Part shown: in pieces, positions 9,565 through 55,850 of the stretch
Numbering within the stretch: position 1 is the first letter of the stretch
How the letters are laid out: every line of letters begins with the position of its first letter
Source: Terriglobia bacterium
Lineage (GTDB): Bacteria; Acidobacteriota; Terriglobia; Terriglobales; Acidobacteriaceae
Direction of reading: 5' to 3'
Length of the DNA: 64,000 bases
Assembly (NCBI GenBank): GCA_020072585.1
Contig: JAIQGL010000008.1
Span: 62,001-126,000, forward strand
Made by a program: the position numbers and the translations under genes
Notes under the pieces: model-generated
What the model was told of the DNA's origin: nothing
Seen by the model: only the letters and a program-made list of their open reading frames with translations
Databases searched by the model: none

Positions 9565-11580
9565 ATGATGTCTCTTCAGACGGTTGGCAGATATGAGATC
9601 ACCGGTGAGCTGGGTCGCGGCGCGATGGGCGTCGTGTACAAAGCCCTGGATCCAACTATTGGCCGGACCGTAGCACTCAAAACGATGCGGCTCGACGTCC
9701 ACGGACTGGACGCGCAGGAGATGGTACGCCGCTTCCAGAATGAAGCCCGCGCCGCAGGCGTGTTGAACCATCCCAACATTGTCACCATCTATGACGCCGG
9801 CGAACAGGATGGGATCTTCTACATTGCCATGGAGTTCATTGAAGGTACCACGCTGCATGAGGTGCTGACGGAGCAGCGCGTGCTGGCAACCGATGAAGTG
9901 CTGCAGCTTACGCGCCAGATTTCCCGCGGTCTGGACTATGCGCATTCCAATGGAATTGTTCATCGTGACATAAAGCCGGCCAACATCATGATTACCGGGA
10001 ACGGCACGGTAAAGATCATGGACTTTGGCATTGCCAAGTCAGGCGGGCAAGTCACAAATACCGGCCAGGTGCTGGGAACGCCCAACTATATGTCTCCCGA
10101 GCAGGTGAAAGGCCGCCCACTGGACGGGCGTTCTGATCTTTTCAGCCTGGGTGTAATTCTTTATGAAATGCTGACCGGCGAAAAACCATTCGTCGGCCAG
10201 AATGTTACGACGATCATTTACAAAATCGTCAATGAAACCCCGATCACGCCACGCGATCTGGATGTAACTGTCCATCCCGGTTTGAGTGCGATTGTCACCA
10301 AGGCCCTGGCCAAAGCGCCTGACGATCGCTATCAGACCGGCGCGGACCTTGTCCGCGATCTTGAAAACTACAAGCTGGCAGGGACAGTGCGCAGCGGCTC
10401 AACCGCTGCCATACCCGTGCCTGCTCCACCTGAGAAAACCGTCGTGCTACCGGTACGAGTTGTTTCCGGCAGCACCGTCAGGGCCGCCGCGGCCGCTACG
10501 GCCCCAGCCAAAGGGCCCATTCCGCTGCTCCGTCCCACGACGGCGATTCTTTCCAGCAAGCGCAGTGTGCTCATTGCAACGATTGTCACTATTCTGGTGC
10601 TGGGCTGCGCCATGGGCGGATACGCTTATCACCGGACGCAGGTAAAGATGCGCCAACTCGCGGAAGAAGCTAAAGCGAGAGAAGCCAGGCTCCAGGCAGA
10701 GCGCGAACCAATTGCCATCGCCATCCCGGCGCCAACGCCGACCCCAGAAGTAATAGCGCCGGACACCACGGTAAGATTTTTCCCGGCCAAGAAACCGGTC
10801 CACGGGCAAAAGCAACCGCCCCCGCCGCAGAAAGCCGCCTTTTCGCCCAATCAGGTTTACATTCAGCAAAGCGAATTGAAACTGAACTCAAAGCCTGACG
10901 GCGCGAAAGTGGAGATTGACGGCTGGAGCGAACCAAACTGGATCACGCCATTCACGGCGTCACACCTTGCCGCCGGGAACCACTTAATCGTCTTCACCAA
11001 AGCTGGTTTTCTGCAGCAGACGCGCGCTATTGAATCTGCCGCCGGCAAGAGCATTGATGTCTCCGCGGAGTTGTCGCCGGCGGTCTCAACCATTGTTGTC
11101 ACCAGCAATCCGCAGGGCGCAAACGTATGGGTTGATGCGAAAGATAGTGGACTGACCACGCCAGCACAACTCACGGTAGAAAAAGGATTTCACAAGGTCA
11201 CGGTGCGCAAGGCGGGATTTAAAGAGGCGTCGACCGAAGAAACGGTTGCTGAAGGGCAGACGATGAGCTTCTCGCCGGTATTGCTGAGCGTGAATCCGCA
11301 GTCGGAAGATGGCAAGAGTCCCACGCTGCTGCGGCGGTTCTTTGGCACGGACACCATTCCTGAAGGCAAAGGGCTGGTCCACATCCGGACGAACCCTGAA
11401 GGCGCAACCATCCTGGTAGACGGCAAAGCCGCTCCCAAGAAAACGAATGCGCGGTGGCCGGCCGATCCGGGCGTGTACAGCATTGTCTTGCAGATGAGCG
11501 GTTACAAATCAGTGCACAGAAACATACGAGTACAAAAAGGCAAGGTCGTCAACATTAACGAACTCCTTGAGAAACAGTGA
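9565..11580 (+). CDS. Transmembrane Ser/Thr protein kinase with three PEGA domains
   Basis: A Hanks-type kinase (about residues 9-270): glycine loop GELGRGAMGVVYKA, lysine VALKTM, catalytic loop HRDIKPANIM, DFGIAK, and activation-segment GTPNYMSPEQ. A proline/alanine-rich juxtamembrane stretch follows, then one transmembrane helix at about 335-356 (VLIATIVTILVLGCAMGGYAY). Outside the membrane a linker leads to three PEGA domains (about 436-508, 510-578, 602-671), each marked by a PxGAxVxVDG-like turn: KPDGAKVEIDG, NPQGANVWVDA, NPEGATILVDG. PEGA domains are linked to the cell envelope or cell-wall binding. It is encoded 10 bases before an FHA-domain cyclase, so its phospho-threonine output may be read by that neighbour. 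Confidence 0.95.
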   Translation: MMSLQTVGRYEITGELGRGAMGVVYKALDPTIGRTVALKTMRLDVHGLDAQEMVRRFQNEARAAGVLNHPNIVTIYDAGEQDGIFYIAMEFIEGTTLHEVLTEQRVLATDEVLQLTRQISRGLDYAHSNGIVHRDIKPANIMITGNGTVKIMDFGIAKSGGQVTNTGQVLGTPNYMSPEQVKGRPLDGRSDLFSLGVILYEMLTGEKPFVGQNVTTIIYKIVNETPITPRDLDVTVHPGLSAIVTKALAKAPDDRYQTGADLVRDLENYKLAGTVRSGSTAAIPVPAPPEKTVVLPVRVVSGSTVRAAAAATAPAKGPIPLLRPTTAILSSKRSVLIATIVTILVLGCAMGGYAYHRTQVKMRQLAEEAKAREARLQAEREPIAIAIPAPTPTPEVIAPDTTVRFFPAKKPVHGQKQPPPPQKAAFSPNQVYIQQSELKLNSKPDGAKVEIDGWSEPNWITPFTASHLAAGNHLIVFTKAGFLQQTRAIESAAGKSIDVSAELSPAVSTIVVTSNPQGANVWVDAKDSGLTTPAQLTVEKGFHKVTVRKAGFKEASTEETVAEGQTMSFSPVLLSVNPQSEDGKSPTLLRRFFGTDTIPEGKGLVHIRTNPEGATILVDGKAAPKKTNARWPADPGVYSIVLQMSGYKSVHRNIRVQKGKVVNINELLEKQ

Positions 11581-11589
11581 CCACCTTCC

Positions 11590-13323
11590 ATGGCACGCCT
11601 CATCATCTCCTCTCCTAACGGGAAAAACGGGATCCTGGAACTCAACAAACCCGTCATTACCGTGGGCCGTGGCAATGCCAACGATCTCGTCCTGAACGAT
11701 TCCAGCGTCAGCCGTTTTCATGCGGTCATCAAGCTTAGAGACAATTCCATCTTTATTGCCGACCGCGGCAGCACGAACGGCATCGTCCTTAATGAAAAGA
11801 AAATCAGCAAGGAAATAGAGCTCAAGAACGGCGATATAGCGCTGGTAGGCCTTTATAAGCTGCTTCTGGAGAGCATTGACGAGCAAGGCATACAGGTGCG
11901 CCGGGGCGAGTGGCCTTCCACACTGAACAACATCATGAGCGGCCGCGTGGAGCAGGCGGTGTTGCCGCGAAGCAGTGACGCTTCCAGCAGTAAATTGAGC
12001 GACCTGGCCGACCGCGTGAAGAAGCTAGAGCGGGAAAATTATCTGCTTACGGTCCTGTATGAAGCCGGCAAGGCGCTGCATTCCAAGCTGGCGCTGGAGC
12101 ATATCTGCGAACAGGTGGTTTCACTGGCCTGCCTGATTGAAGGCGTGGAGCGCGGCTTCGTCATGCTGTTTGACGAGCACGGTGAAGTAGTGCGGCAAAG
12201 CGAAGTACGGTACCGCGATCCTGAAGCTTCGGGGAGCCGTCCCTCCACCCCAGCGCACGCAAAACCGGCGCGCTCCGGGGACCCCAGGCCGCAGATCATC
12301 CTGAGCACCCGCGTGCTGGAGATGATCCGCAAAGAGAGGCAGCCGATTCTGATTGAGGACGTGAGCGCCGACGAGCGCTTCAGCGGCAGCGAAAGCCTTA
12401 AGATTTCCGGGTTGCGCTCCGCCATGTGCGCGCCCCTGGTGGGTAAAGACAGGCTGTTTGGAATCCTCTATGTGGACAATCTGGAGAGGGCATCAGCATT
12501 CACACAGGAAGAGCTCAATGTTTTTGCCCTGGTGGCGGCGCAGGCAGGAGCAGCCATTGACAATGCGGCGGCCCACGAAAAAATCGCGCAGCAATCAGTG
12601 CAACGCTCAGCGCTGGAACGCTTCCTTTCTCCTGAAGTTGTAGAGATGGTCGTGGCCAATCCGGACATCAGGCTGGGCGGCGTGAACCAGGAAGTAACGG
12701 TCATGTTCGCGGACATTCGCGGCTTTACCGCAATGAGCGAGGACATGGAGCCCAGTCGCGTGGTGGAAATTTTGAATGAATATTTCACGCGCGTCACTGA
12801 CGTGATCTTTGATAACGGCGGAACGCTGGATAAATACATTGGAGACGCGGTAATGGCGGTCTTTGGAGCGCCGATCTCAAAAGGCAATGATGCGGCCAGC
12901 GCGGTGACCTCGGCGATCCAGATCCAAAGGCTGCTGATCGAACTAAACCGTGACGCGGTAGCGCGCAACTGGCCCGAACTGCGCGTGGGCATCGGTATCA
13001 ACACGGGGAGCGCCATTGCGGGTAACATCGGCTCGCCGCGGAGACTTGATTACACAGTGGTGGGCGACACCGTGAACACCGCGCAGAGATTAATGACGAA
13101 TGCCGCCGGGGGCCAGATCCTGATTGCCGAGTCCACGGCCAAAAAGCTGGGCAAGAATTTTGATCTGGAGCGGCTGCCTGAGCTGAAGGTAAAAGGCCGC
13201 AGTGAGGCAGTCCCGGTATTCCGTGTGGGCTGGGCAGCGGAGAAACCTGCCGCTACCGTCGTGTTAGCAAAGAAAAGGCGCCCCGCTAAGGGCGCCGCAC
13301 AATCGCGAATGAGATCTACTTAG
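11590..13323 (+). CDS. FHA-GAF-class III adenylate cyclase
   Basis: Three domains in order: FHA (about 1-85, GRGNANDLVLND and SVSRFHAVI, RGSTNG), which binds phosphothreonine; a GAF domain (about 150-325, APLVGKDRLFGILYVDN); and a class III cyclase domain (about 365-545). Both metal-binding aspartates are visible in VMFADIRGFTAM and YIGDAVMAVFGAP. The adenine-recognition lysine (LDKYIGD) and VVGDTVNTAQRL support ATP rather than GTP as substrate. The C-terminus is basic. It is almost certainly co-transcribed with the upstream kinase. Its 3' end overlaps the convergent HhH gene by 8 bases. Confidence 0.93.
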   Translation: MARLIISSPNGKNGILELNKPVITVGRGNANDLVLNDSSVSRFHAVIKLRDNSIFIADRGSTNGIVLNEKKISKEIELKNGDIALVGLYKLLLESIDEQGIQVRRGEWPSTLNNIMSGRVEQAVLPRSSDASSSKLSDLADRVKKLERENYLLTVLYEAGKALHSKLALEHICEQVVSLACLIEGVERGFVMLFDEHGEVVRQSEVRYRDPEASGSRPSTPAHAKPARSGDPRPQIILSTRVLEMIRKERQPILIEDVSADERFSGSESLKISGLRSAMCAPLVGKDRLFGILYVDNLERASAFTQEELNVFALVAAQAGAAIDNAAAHEKIAQQSVQRSALERFLSPEVVEMVVANPDIRLGGVNQEVTVMFADIRGFTAMSEDMEPSRVVEILNEYFTRVTDVIFDNGGTLDKYIGDAVMAVFGAPISKGNDAASAVTSAIQIQRLLIELNRDAVARNWPELRVGIGINTGSAIAGNIGSPRRLDYTVVGDTVNTAQRLMTNAAGGQILIAESTAKKLGKNFDLERLPELKVKGRSEAVPVFRVGWAAEKPAATVVLAKKRRPAKGAAQSRMRST

Positions 13324-54170: not shown

Positions 54171-55367
54171 TCACTGCAACGGCGTGCTTGCCCCCTCAAA
54201 AACCTTTGTTACCGTACTCCGCCCGACGCCATAGATGATGAAGCTTTTCTCGTCAAAGCTGTATTCACGGAAGAGAAGCTCAGCCAGACCATCGCCATCA
54301 ACATCGACCGCGTCAATCAACTCAAGCCGGGGCGCCACGTCCAAGCGTGAAGAGTCCGTCACACTGGCCGCAAGCTTTTGCGGCACGCCATCAAAATCCA
54401 CACGCGCAATGACAGTCACATATCGTGAGATAAATTTTCCCGGCGTACCTTTGCCGCCGGGAGCCAGATAGCTTCCGGGGACCTCCGCACTCAACACGAT
54501 GACGGCATCATTGCTCATGTCCAGATCAAAGGAACGCATGGCGATGTTCTTGAGCGAGTTCGGCGTGAGCTGAGCGTTCTCCCGGGGGAGCTGCGCCAGG
54601 GCGAGCTTGCGCATCTTGAGTTCCATCTGCTCCGCCTCTCCGGCTTTCCATTTAAATTCATAGGATCGGGGATCCGTGGACTCTGTGTCAGACACAGCCA
54701 CAAGAACCTTGGTGCCGGGTGTGAAGACCCGAGGGGTGGTCGAAGGGACAGCGCCTTCCACCGGAGTTGGTTTGGGCTGCGGTGGCTCGGCCGGTTCCTG
54801 CTTTTGAGGATCGCGCCGCTTCAGCGTTGGACGGTCCGCATCCTCGGATGGAGTAGCTGGAGCAGTGTCTGCCGATCCTGCCCCCGCACCGGACGGAGCG
54901 GGAGTGCCTGTGGGAGCGGCCGCTGTGGTGCTATCGCCGTGACGAATAATCGGCCGGTCGTCGCCGGCGACCACGGGCGGCGGAGGCGGCGGTTTTTTGA
55001 TAAGGTCCACGGGCTGCCACTTACCAAGCGCCGTCCAGCCATGGCTGTTTGTGCCGCTTAAGATGGTGGCATAGCCCGCGGGCATGCCAGACGTCTGCCC
55101 TTCATATACGATTCCGTTCTCAAGGGCCATGGGACGTGGCGACGACTTGTAGATGCCAGCGTCATTGAAGCGGCCTTCATCCAGAATGGTCACCGGGAAA
55201 ACGCGCGTGGAAACAATTCCGGCTGAGTCGGTTGTGATCTCAAGAACGGCGGTGGCACGCAGTTTGTGGGCCTTACGCCGCTGCGCCGTGGCACCAGCAA
55301 GAGCAGCAGCACACACCAGCACAAGAGCCGCGCTGGCCAGAAACTTTCTTCTGCTATATAAATTCAT
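54171..55367 (-). CDS. Exported hypothetical protein with Pro/Ala-rich middle and FG-GAP-like end
   Basis: Start at 55367 chosen because it gives the signal MNLYSRRKFLASAALVLVCA (with a twin-arginine-like SRRKF). The longer frame upstream is mostly antisense to the peroxiredoxin gene. Residues 40-140 are a beta-rich domain, then a low-complexity Pro/Thr/Ala/Glu stretch (KKPPPPPPVV; TPAPSGAGAG), then a second beta domain (YEFKWKAGEAEQMELKMRKL; YVTVIARVDFDGVPQKLAAS). VDVDGDGLAEL near residue 358 is a calcium-binding-like FG-GAP/Dx[DN]xDG turn. The function is unknown. The start is only 24 bases from the divergent peroxiredoxin start. Confidence 0.75.
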   Translation of the reverse strand: MNLYSRRKFLASAALVLVCAAALAGATAQRRKAHKLRATAVLEITTDSAGIVSTRVFPVTILDEGRFNDAGIYKSSPRPMALENGIVYEGQTSGMPAGYATILSGTNSHGWTALGKWQPVDLIKKPPPPPPVVAGDDRPIIRHGDSTTAAAPTGTPAPSGAGAGSADTAPATPSEDADRPTLKRRDPQKQEPAEPPQPKPTPVEGAVPSTTPRVFTPGTKVLVAVSDTESTDPRSYEFKWKAGEAEQMELKMRKLALAQLPRENAQLTPNSLKNIAMRSFDLDMSNDAVIVLSAEVPGSYLAPGGKGTPGKFISRYVTVIARVDFDGVPQKLAASVTDSSRLDVAPRLELIDAVDVDGDGLAELLFREYSFDEKSFIIYGVGRSTVTKVFEGASTPLQ

Positions 55368-55391
55368 TGCCGTTATAAACACAGGAAATCC

Positions 55392-55850
55392 ATGGAAGTT
55401 AATGATAAAGCCCCGGAGTTCTCTCTTGCTAATGAAGAGGGTAAAACAGTCGCACTGAAAGACCATCGAGGAAAGAACGTGGTCCTGTTCTTTTACCCCA
55501 AAGCCAACACGTCCGGTTGAACGATTGAAGCGTGCGGGTTCCGCGACGCATTCCAGAAAATCCAGCGGGCTGGCGCTGTTGTACTCGGCATCTCCGCCGA
55601 TAAGCCGTCTGCCCAGAAGAAGTTCAAAGAGAAAAACGACCTTCCCTATTCGCTTCTGGCGGATGTGGACAAGGCCGTCTGTATCAAGTATGGCGTGCTC
55701 AAGGAAAAGAGCATGTATGGCCGGAAATATATGGGCATCGACCGGACCACGTTCGTGATCAGCCCGGAAGGAAAGATCTCCGCAATTCTCAGCGGGTTGA
55801 AGCCGGACGAGCATGCCGGAGCGGTCATTGCAGCTTTGAAAGGCCTGTAA
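55392..55850 (+). CDS. Selenocysteine-containing Bcp-type peroxiredoxin (in-frame TGA at catalytic position)
   Basis: Read through one in-frame TGA (55518-55520), this is a 152-residue thiol peroxidase of the Bcp/PrxQ family that reduces hydroperoxides. It opens MEVNDKAPEFSLANEEGKTV, then VVLFFYPKANTSG-U-TIEAC, where family members have YPKADTPG-C-TTEAC. The TGA (residue 43) replaces exactly the peroxidatic cysteine, and the resolving cysteine C48 is kept. The rest is intact: GFRDAFQKIQRAGAVVLGIS, ADKPSAQKKF, TTFVISPEGKISAIL. No other stop or frameshift occurs, and codon use is like the neighbours. A SECIS-like hairpin follows the TGA. AGGAA lies 6 bases before the ATG. A plain cysteine-to-stop mutation is less likely, since both motif sides are conserved. 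Confidence 0.9.
55518..55549 (+). promoter_or_regulatory. Bacterial SECIS element directing Sec insertion at the TGA
   Basis: TGA at 55518-55520, then a stem GCGTGCGG (55530-55537) / CCGCgACGC (55541-55549), 8 pairs with one bulged G (55545) and the apical loop GTT. The loop begins with G at 55538, 18 nt past the TGA, inside the 16-37 nt window and with the G near the loop start required in known bacterial SECIS elements. The GU at the loop recalls that of E. coli fdhF. Confidence 0.82.

Follow-up and report, generated by a model that had tools for sequence, protein, structure and literature searches.

Peroxiredoxins (Prx) of the Bcp type in which selenocysteine (Sec) takes the peroxidatic place are an established selenoprotein family. 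The extract of PMC9312934 used here lists the family as Prx, COG1225 Bcp, with the motif TxxU, citing the selenoperoxiredoxin of Eubacterium acidaminophilum, and that of PMC13188914 sets Prx (PF00578, TxxU) above the heading 'Predicted with high confidence', that is, apparently among the verified families, and gives its motif as PxxxTxxU. According to similarly partial texts, 43 such Prx genes were present in the Sargasso Sea set (PMC1088965), four selenoproteins of three families had been counted in Acidobacteria by 2006 (PMC1794560), and Occallatibacter riparius has three known selenoprotein genes (PMC12013277). Because of these published listings and counts, neither the family nor the use of Sec in Acidobacteriota is new, and the gene described here adds one member to the family. 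Further Sec-carrying relatives among the peroxiredoxins are PrxU and Prx-SUH.

The window, which is the whole stretch of 64,000 nucleotides analysed from a Terriglobia bacterium (contig JAIQGL010000008.1), contains a Bcp/PrxQ-type gene whose reading frame passes through an in-frame TGA (Table 1). The sequence-only reading had described it as one intact peroxiredoxin gene once this TGA is decoded, free of any other disruption, and both points hold, the TGA being the sole stop between the ATG and the terminal TAA. The TGA had also been placed at the peroxidatic cysteine (C_P) with a second cysteine five residues on, as is borne out by the frame PKANTSG-U-TIEAC; this cysteine at +5 presumably occupies the place of the resolving cysteine (C_R) in E. 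coli-type Bcp. The read-through protein is a member of NCBIfam NF006960, thioredoxin-dependent thiol peroxidase (155.3 bits, curated cut-off 140), has the AhpC-TSA domain (137 bits, cut-off 26) and aligns over nearly its whole length, residues 2-151, with the solved peroxiredoxin chain 5enu_A (E 4.8e-34). In both solved Bcp-type chains with alignments shown, a cysteine lies opposite residue 43. The protein thus shares with the Bcp/PrxQ thiol peroxidases of NF006960 the curated score, the C_P position and the cysteine at +5, and differs from them in its predicted Sec, not Cys, at C_P.

Like the listed Prx selenoproteins, the protein is of the Bcp type, with a putative peroxidatic Sec in PxxxTxxU (P-KAN-T-SG-U) and a UGA followed by a stem-loop of the bacterial SECIS type; in the extracts available this likeness is one of listed family and motif, not of example sequence. 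It differs from them in its lineage, probably Acidobacteriota, and in having the C_R codon within the SECIS stem, some relatives having lost that cysteine. Membership in PrxU (NF040737) or Prx-SUH (NF045827), which are likewise peroxiredoxin relatives, was rejected, the scores lying far under both curated cut-offs (46.7 of 270 and 31.7 of 298 bits, respectively). The WAxxUGC_long model (19 of 300 bits) and the SelL-related model (19.1 of 120 bits) also remained below their cut-offs for this protein. As no Sec-specific NCBIfam model among the matches reaches its cut-off, it is plausible that annotation pipelines miss the gene.

Table 1. Features of the probable selenoperoxiredoxin locus (window coordinates) and further TGA-containing AhpC-TSA genes of the host genome.
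Feature	Coordinates	Strand	Remarks
Bcp/PrxQ-type selenoperoxiredoxin gene (predicted)	55392..55850	+	152 residues; TAA stop 55848-55850; putative Sec at residue 43
TGA, putative selenocysteine codon	55518..55520	+	peroxidatic position, PxxxTxxU motif; TGA at aligned codon in 63 of 168 loci
Bacterial SECIS-type stem-loop	55527..55553	+	core 55530-55537 with 55541-55549; bulged G 55545; loop GUU 55538-55540
Resolving-Cys codon TGC (residue 48)	55533..55535	+	within 5' arm of SECIS stem
Cys codon of residue 97	55680..55682	+	only other Cys besides residue 48; variable among orthologues
AhpC-TSA gene with TGA, L002 (outside window)			TGGUT
AhpC-TSA gene with TGA, L003 (outside window)			SPTUT
AhpC-TSA gene with TGA, L008 (outside window)		reverse	YWUPFC
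AhpC-TSA gene with TGA, L029 (outside window)			WASWUGC
AhpC-TSA gene with TGA, L030 (outside window)			HYGUIFC

The position of the TGA, the intactness, conservation and selection of the frame, the decoding machinery and the fit of the downstream stem-loop to a SECIS, all read from the sequence, point with a probability of about 96% to an atypical 2-Cys-type Bcp/PrxQ peroxiredoxin with Sec as its peroxidatic residue, the UGA being decoded via SECIS and SelB. By analogy with known families, the source for the insertion of Sec, the binding of SelB and all of the catalytic steps, a tRNA-Sec (UCA) would be charged via SerRS, SelA and SelD, and SelB would bind the stem-loop (core from the 10th nucleotide after the UGA) and bring the Sec-tRNA to this codon. 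At the active site, H2O2 or organic peroxides would be reduced by the selenolate of U43, giving a selenenic acid, which C48 would resolve as a selenenylsulfide that could subsequently be reduced by thioredoxin or a similar thiol. So read, the gene represents a well-supported selenoperoxiredoxin that recurs across many genomes within a single bacterial order.

By open-reading-frame rules alone, reading through a single TGA is possible in 129 stretches of the window; an open frame through a TGA therefore means little by itself, and it is the continuing homology that counts. All nine same-genus genomes drawn, host included, have TGA at the aligned codon with one stop in each alignment, so that close relatives share the TGA and show no further disruption. 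At the level of the order, 397 genomes were searched, the matches listed covering 149 of them (61 with TGA and 88 with no stop) and not the other 248. Codon 43 was read in 168 loci, made up of the 61 TGA orthologues, 27 of the 88 stop-free ones and the best 80 of 580 relatives, and is TGA in 63, TGC in 67 and TGT in 38, cysteine being the only other residue (105 of the 105 loci without TGA). TGA occurs in two of the best 80 relatives, L061 from an Acidobacteriota MAG and L062 from a Candidatus Sulfotelmatobacter MAG; these are identical to L054 and L149, and the 63 TGA loci, a count that includes both, therefore represent 61 distinct genes. The named relatives also point to Acidobacteriota, probably Terriglobales, as the source of the window. 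Each of the 63 has a single stop in its alignment, at the catalytic codon. An extra TAA or TAG in the G041, G187 and G140 alignments was taken for the normal terminator, because in all three the frame stays open for 108 residues from the TGA.

The host genome, 6.9 Mb in 74 contigs with a listed completeness of 96.8, encodes tRNA-Sec (73.9 bits, anticodon TCA), SelA (542.7 bits), SelB (385.2 bits) and SelD (371.5 bits, with a TGA of its own in AAGUASKL), the three proteins scoring above their curated cut-offs. A search for these four had been suggested from the sequence, absence of selA, selB and selC being named as an argument against Sec, and all are present. The marks of a Prx selenoprotein are thus present: a UGA at the peroxidatic codon in PxxxTxxU, for which other orthologues have a Cys codon, and, in the host, the complete set of SelA, SelB, SelD and tRNA-Sec. 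Among the relatives, SelA (E < 1e-60) was found in 59 of the 61 TGA-Bcp genomes versus 41 of the 88 others (Fisher p 7e-12, uncorrected for kinship), the latter figure meaning that the Sec pathway alone does not imply Sec in Bcp. The two TGA genomes without a strong SelA (G145 with none, G356 with 3.9e-11) both have tRNA-Sec. A search for tRNA-Sec in 35 genomes, with 88 first-look candidates scored per genome, gave matches of at least 57 bits in 16 of the 20 TGA-Bcp genomes tested, in none of the 14 Cys-Bcp genomes lacking SelA at E < 1e-60 (best 50.5 bits), and in G042, which is counted in neither group. The four TGA genomes with no strong tRNA-Sec match, G187, G366, G188 and G317, have listed completeness of 92, 81, 90 and 76, respectively.

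Since UGA has other meanings in some natural variants, there is some precedent for the view that the TGA here specifies a different amino acid (Cys, Trp or one inserted by near-cognate suppression) or acts as a regulated stop. This view is nevertheless highly improbable, given that the genome retains the full Sec pathway with its TCA tRNA-Sec, that the one stop of every TGA locus falls on the catalytic codon, and that in all 105 loci read without TGA at this codon a cysteine stands in its place. Decoding as Sec also agrees with the protein-level conservation that the sequence-only reading had claimed past the TGA, since homology continues there and purifying selection on the two sides of the TGA is alike. 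In comparisons with seven relatives of the genus, in most of which dS is high, dN/dS ranges over 0.042-0.181 upstream of the TGA and over 0.038-0.118 in the 84 codons downstream; an eighth relative (L037) was left out because of a two-residue insert and saturated dS. An in-frame stop at residue 43 does have the look of a disrupted gene, and a nonsense mutation in a recent pseudogene would produce it; however, the purifying selection past the TGA, the lack of any other stop inside these alignments and the recurrence of TGA at the same codon, both throughout the genus sample and in 61 distinct genes overall, leave a pseudogene even less probable than an alternative decoding.

For the decoding signal, the sequence-only reading had pointed to a stem-loop with an apical GTT beginning 18 nt past the TGA. 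The hairpin and its apical GTT are present; the 18th nucleotide after the TGA, however, is the start of the loop and not of the stem. Pairing of the core stem begins with the 10th nucleotide, preceded by three weaker outer pairs from the 7th, and 17 nt lie between the TGA and the loop. The core has 8 bp with one bulge and a GUU loop, and the 43-nt stretch folds with an energy of -12.4 kcal/mol. These values fit the bacterial SECIS constraints in the figure legend of PMC13188914, namely a loop of 3-9 nt having G within its first two positions, an upper stem of 4-16 bp, 16-37 nt from the UGA to the loop and a minimum free energy of -7.5 kcal/mol or lower. Significance was not reached from the window sequence alone, where the hairpin is not beyond chance: 26 of 200 shuffles of the 43 nt fold as well, as do 164 of 200 for 61 nt and 142 of 200 for 89 nt (z of -1.27, 0.91 and 0.66, respectively).

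The SECIS signal resides in the contrast between groups, and the hairpin is convincing solely by comparison. A complete stem of one or another of three designs is present in 54 of the 63 TGA loci, or 52 when only distinct genes are counted (of 61), versus 3 of the 27 Cys orthologues; synonymous codon shuffling predicts about 10.5 complete stems among the 63, a comparison that overstates independence because the stem models were derived from the very sequences scored, which are moreover related to one another. The loop Gly codon is GGG in 57 of 63 TGA loci versus 3 of 27 Cys loci, and the Ala codon is GCG in 46 of 63 versus 5 of 27. Energies relative to synonymous shuffles of 39 nt have a mean z of -0.72 in the 63 TGA loci versus +0.25 in the 27 Cys loci (p about 3e-6, uncorrected for kinship), the same contrast giving p 0.086 at 45 nt. 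Taken singly, 0, 2 and 3 of the 63 TGA loci fall at or below 0.05 against synonymous shuffles of 33, 39 and 45 nt, respectively. A sequencing or assembly error for TGC or TGT, codons one base away from TGA, is very unlikely and the least probable reading of all, because the same TGA recurs across separate assemblies, in 61 distinct genes, and the codons after it are under SECIS-type constraint in TGA loci and not in most Cys loci; like the pseudogene, it was set aside on the recurrence of the TGA and on selection.

Five TGA loci of one genus (code g30; L142, L145, L161, L176 and L177) are without the common stem and have a different, longer hairpin, which may be a further SECIS design. A complete stem is also missing from two TGA loci with Ser and two with Arg at the C_R position. 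The Cys loci with a full stem are L196 and L198 (TGC and TGT), together with a third; L196 and L198 adjoin Sec proteins on the protein tree and are probable recent Sec-to-Cys reversions keeping the SECIS stem as a relic.

With the U of the UGA as nucleotide 1, the C_R codon occupies nucleotides 16-18 and lies inside the SECIS stem. The host protein itself retains C_R; the 63 TGA loci have Cys at this position in 43 cases, Ser in 7 and Arg in 13. C_R is therefore absent from 20 of 63 TGA loci (19 of the 61 distinct genes) versus 3 of 105 Cys loci (Fisher p 2e-7, uncorrected). In 14 of these 20 loci (13 of the 19 distinct genes) there is no other Cys at all, so that Sec would be the only such redox residue. 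The stem design follows the residue at C_R: UGC with a bulged G for Cys; for Ser, UCC together with a shift of the bulge and a change of CGC to CGU; and CGC with an unbulged stem for Arg. The shifted-bulge stem is formed by five loci with TCC, GGG and CGT, and the unbulged one by 11 of the 13 Arg loci. In the open-licence literature searched, judged mostly from listings, no paper was found on a Sec Prx losing its resolving Cys, nor on a resolving-Cys codon inside a SECIS stem.

On a protein tree of 93 rows and 143 columns, with residues 43-54 left out and 40 of 88 inner branches open, Sec and Cys interchange at least seven times and C_R changes at least five times. The link between Sec and C_R loss is represented by two independent pairs on supported branches and by seven on all branches, the sign test being not significant. 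Coupling between Sec and C_R loss is accordingly a suggestive lead, given the few columns, the many open branches and the non-significant independent-pairs test. With two other Acidobacteria (L090 and L104) as root, Sec appears basal and most changes read from Sec to Cys, in a sample that was picked by likeness to a Sec protein and so favours a Sec-first view. Here a tentative scenario is proposed, with odds a little short of even, in which the SECIS stem is built from the nucleotides of the C_R codon, Sec relaxes the need for C_R and in part yields '1-Sec' peroxiredoxins, the stem is rebuilt in step with the residue, and Sec is old, with several later reversions to Cys. The locus offers a natural experiment on the evolution of an RNA decoding signal overlapping a catalytic residue and on the effect of Sec on the need for a resolving Cys. 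Sec and Cys forms occur within one genus (g24, g17), which makes the question directly testable.

The AhpC-TSA search of the host genome gave 31 places, six of them with one TGA, each at an apparent active-site Cys; the five besides Bcp are included in Table 1. SelD (L026), also outside the window, has a single TGA at an apparent active-site Cys, so that candidate redox or selenium genes with a TGA number seven in the host genome. On the SelL-related model L030 scores 133.6 bits, above the cut-off of 120, whereas L029 falls just under the cut-off of WAxxUGC_long (291.5 of 300 bits). No NCBIfam cut-off is reached by L002, L003 or L008, which may be selenoproteins of a less well characterised kind.

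In the window, eight of the 129 TGA read-through candidates, Bcp not among them, were scanned with Pfam, six being without a family, one having a domain solely upstream of the TGA and one consisting of two same-frame genes. In this last case (9565-13323), a Ser/Thr kinase-PEGA gene ends at the TGA at 11578 and an FHA-GAF-cyclase gene starts in the same frame at the ATG at 11590; a read-through gene was rejected here, the stretch being most simply two neighbouring genes. No tRNAs or Rfam families were found in the window at default thresholds. The Bcp gene adjoins a divergent gene with, presumably, a twin-arginine-like signal at its N-terminus, the two start codons being 24 nt apart (55365-55394). 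The sequence ATATAAATTCAT at this place is kept in seven of nine genomes of the genus, perhaps conserved as coding sequence of the divergent gene.
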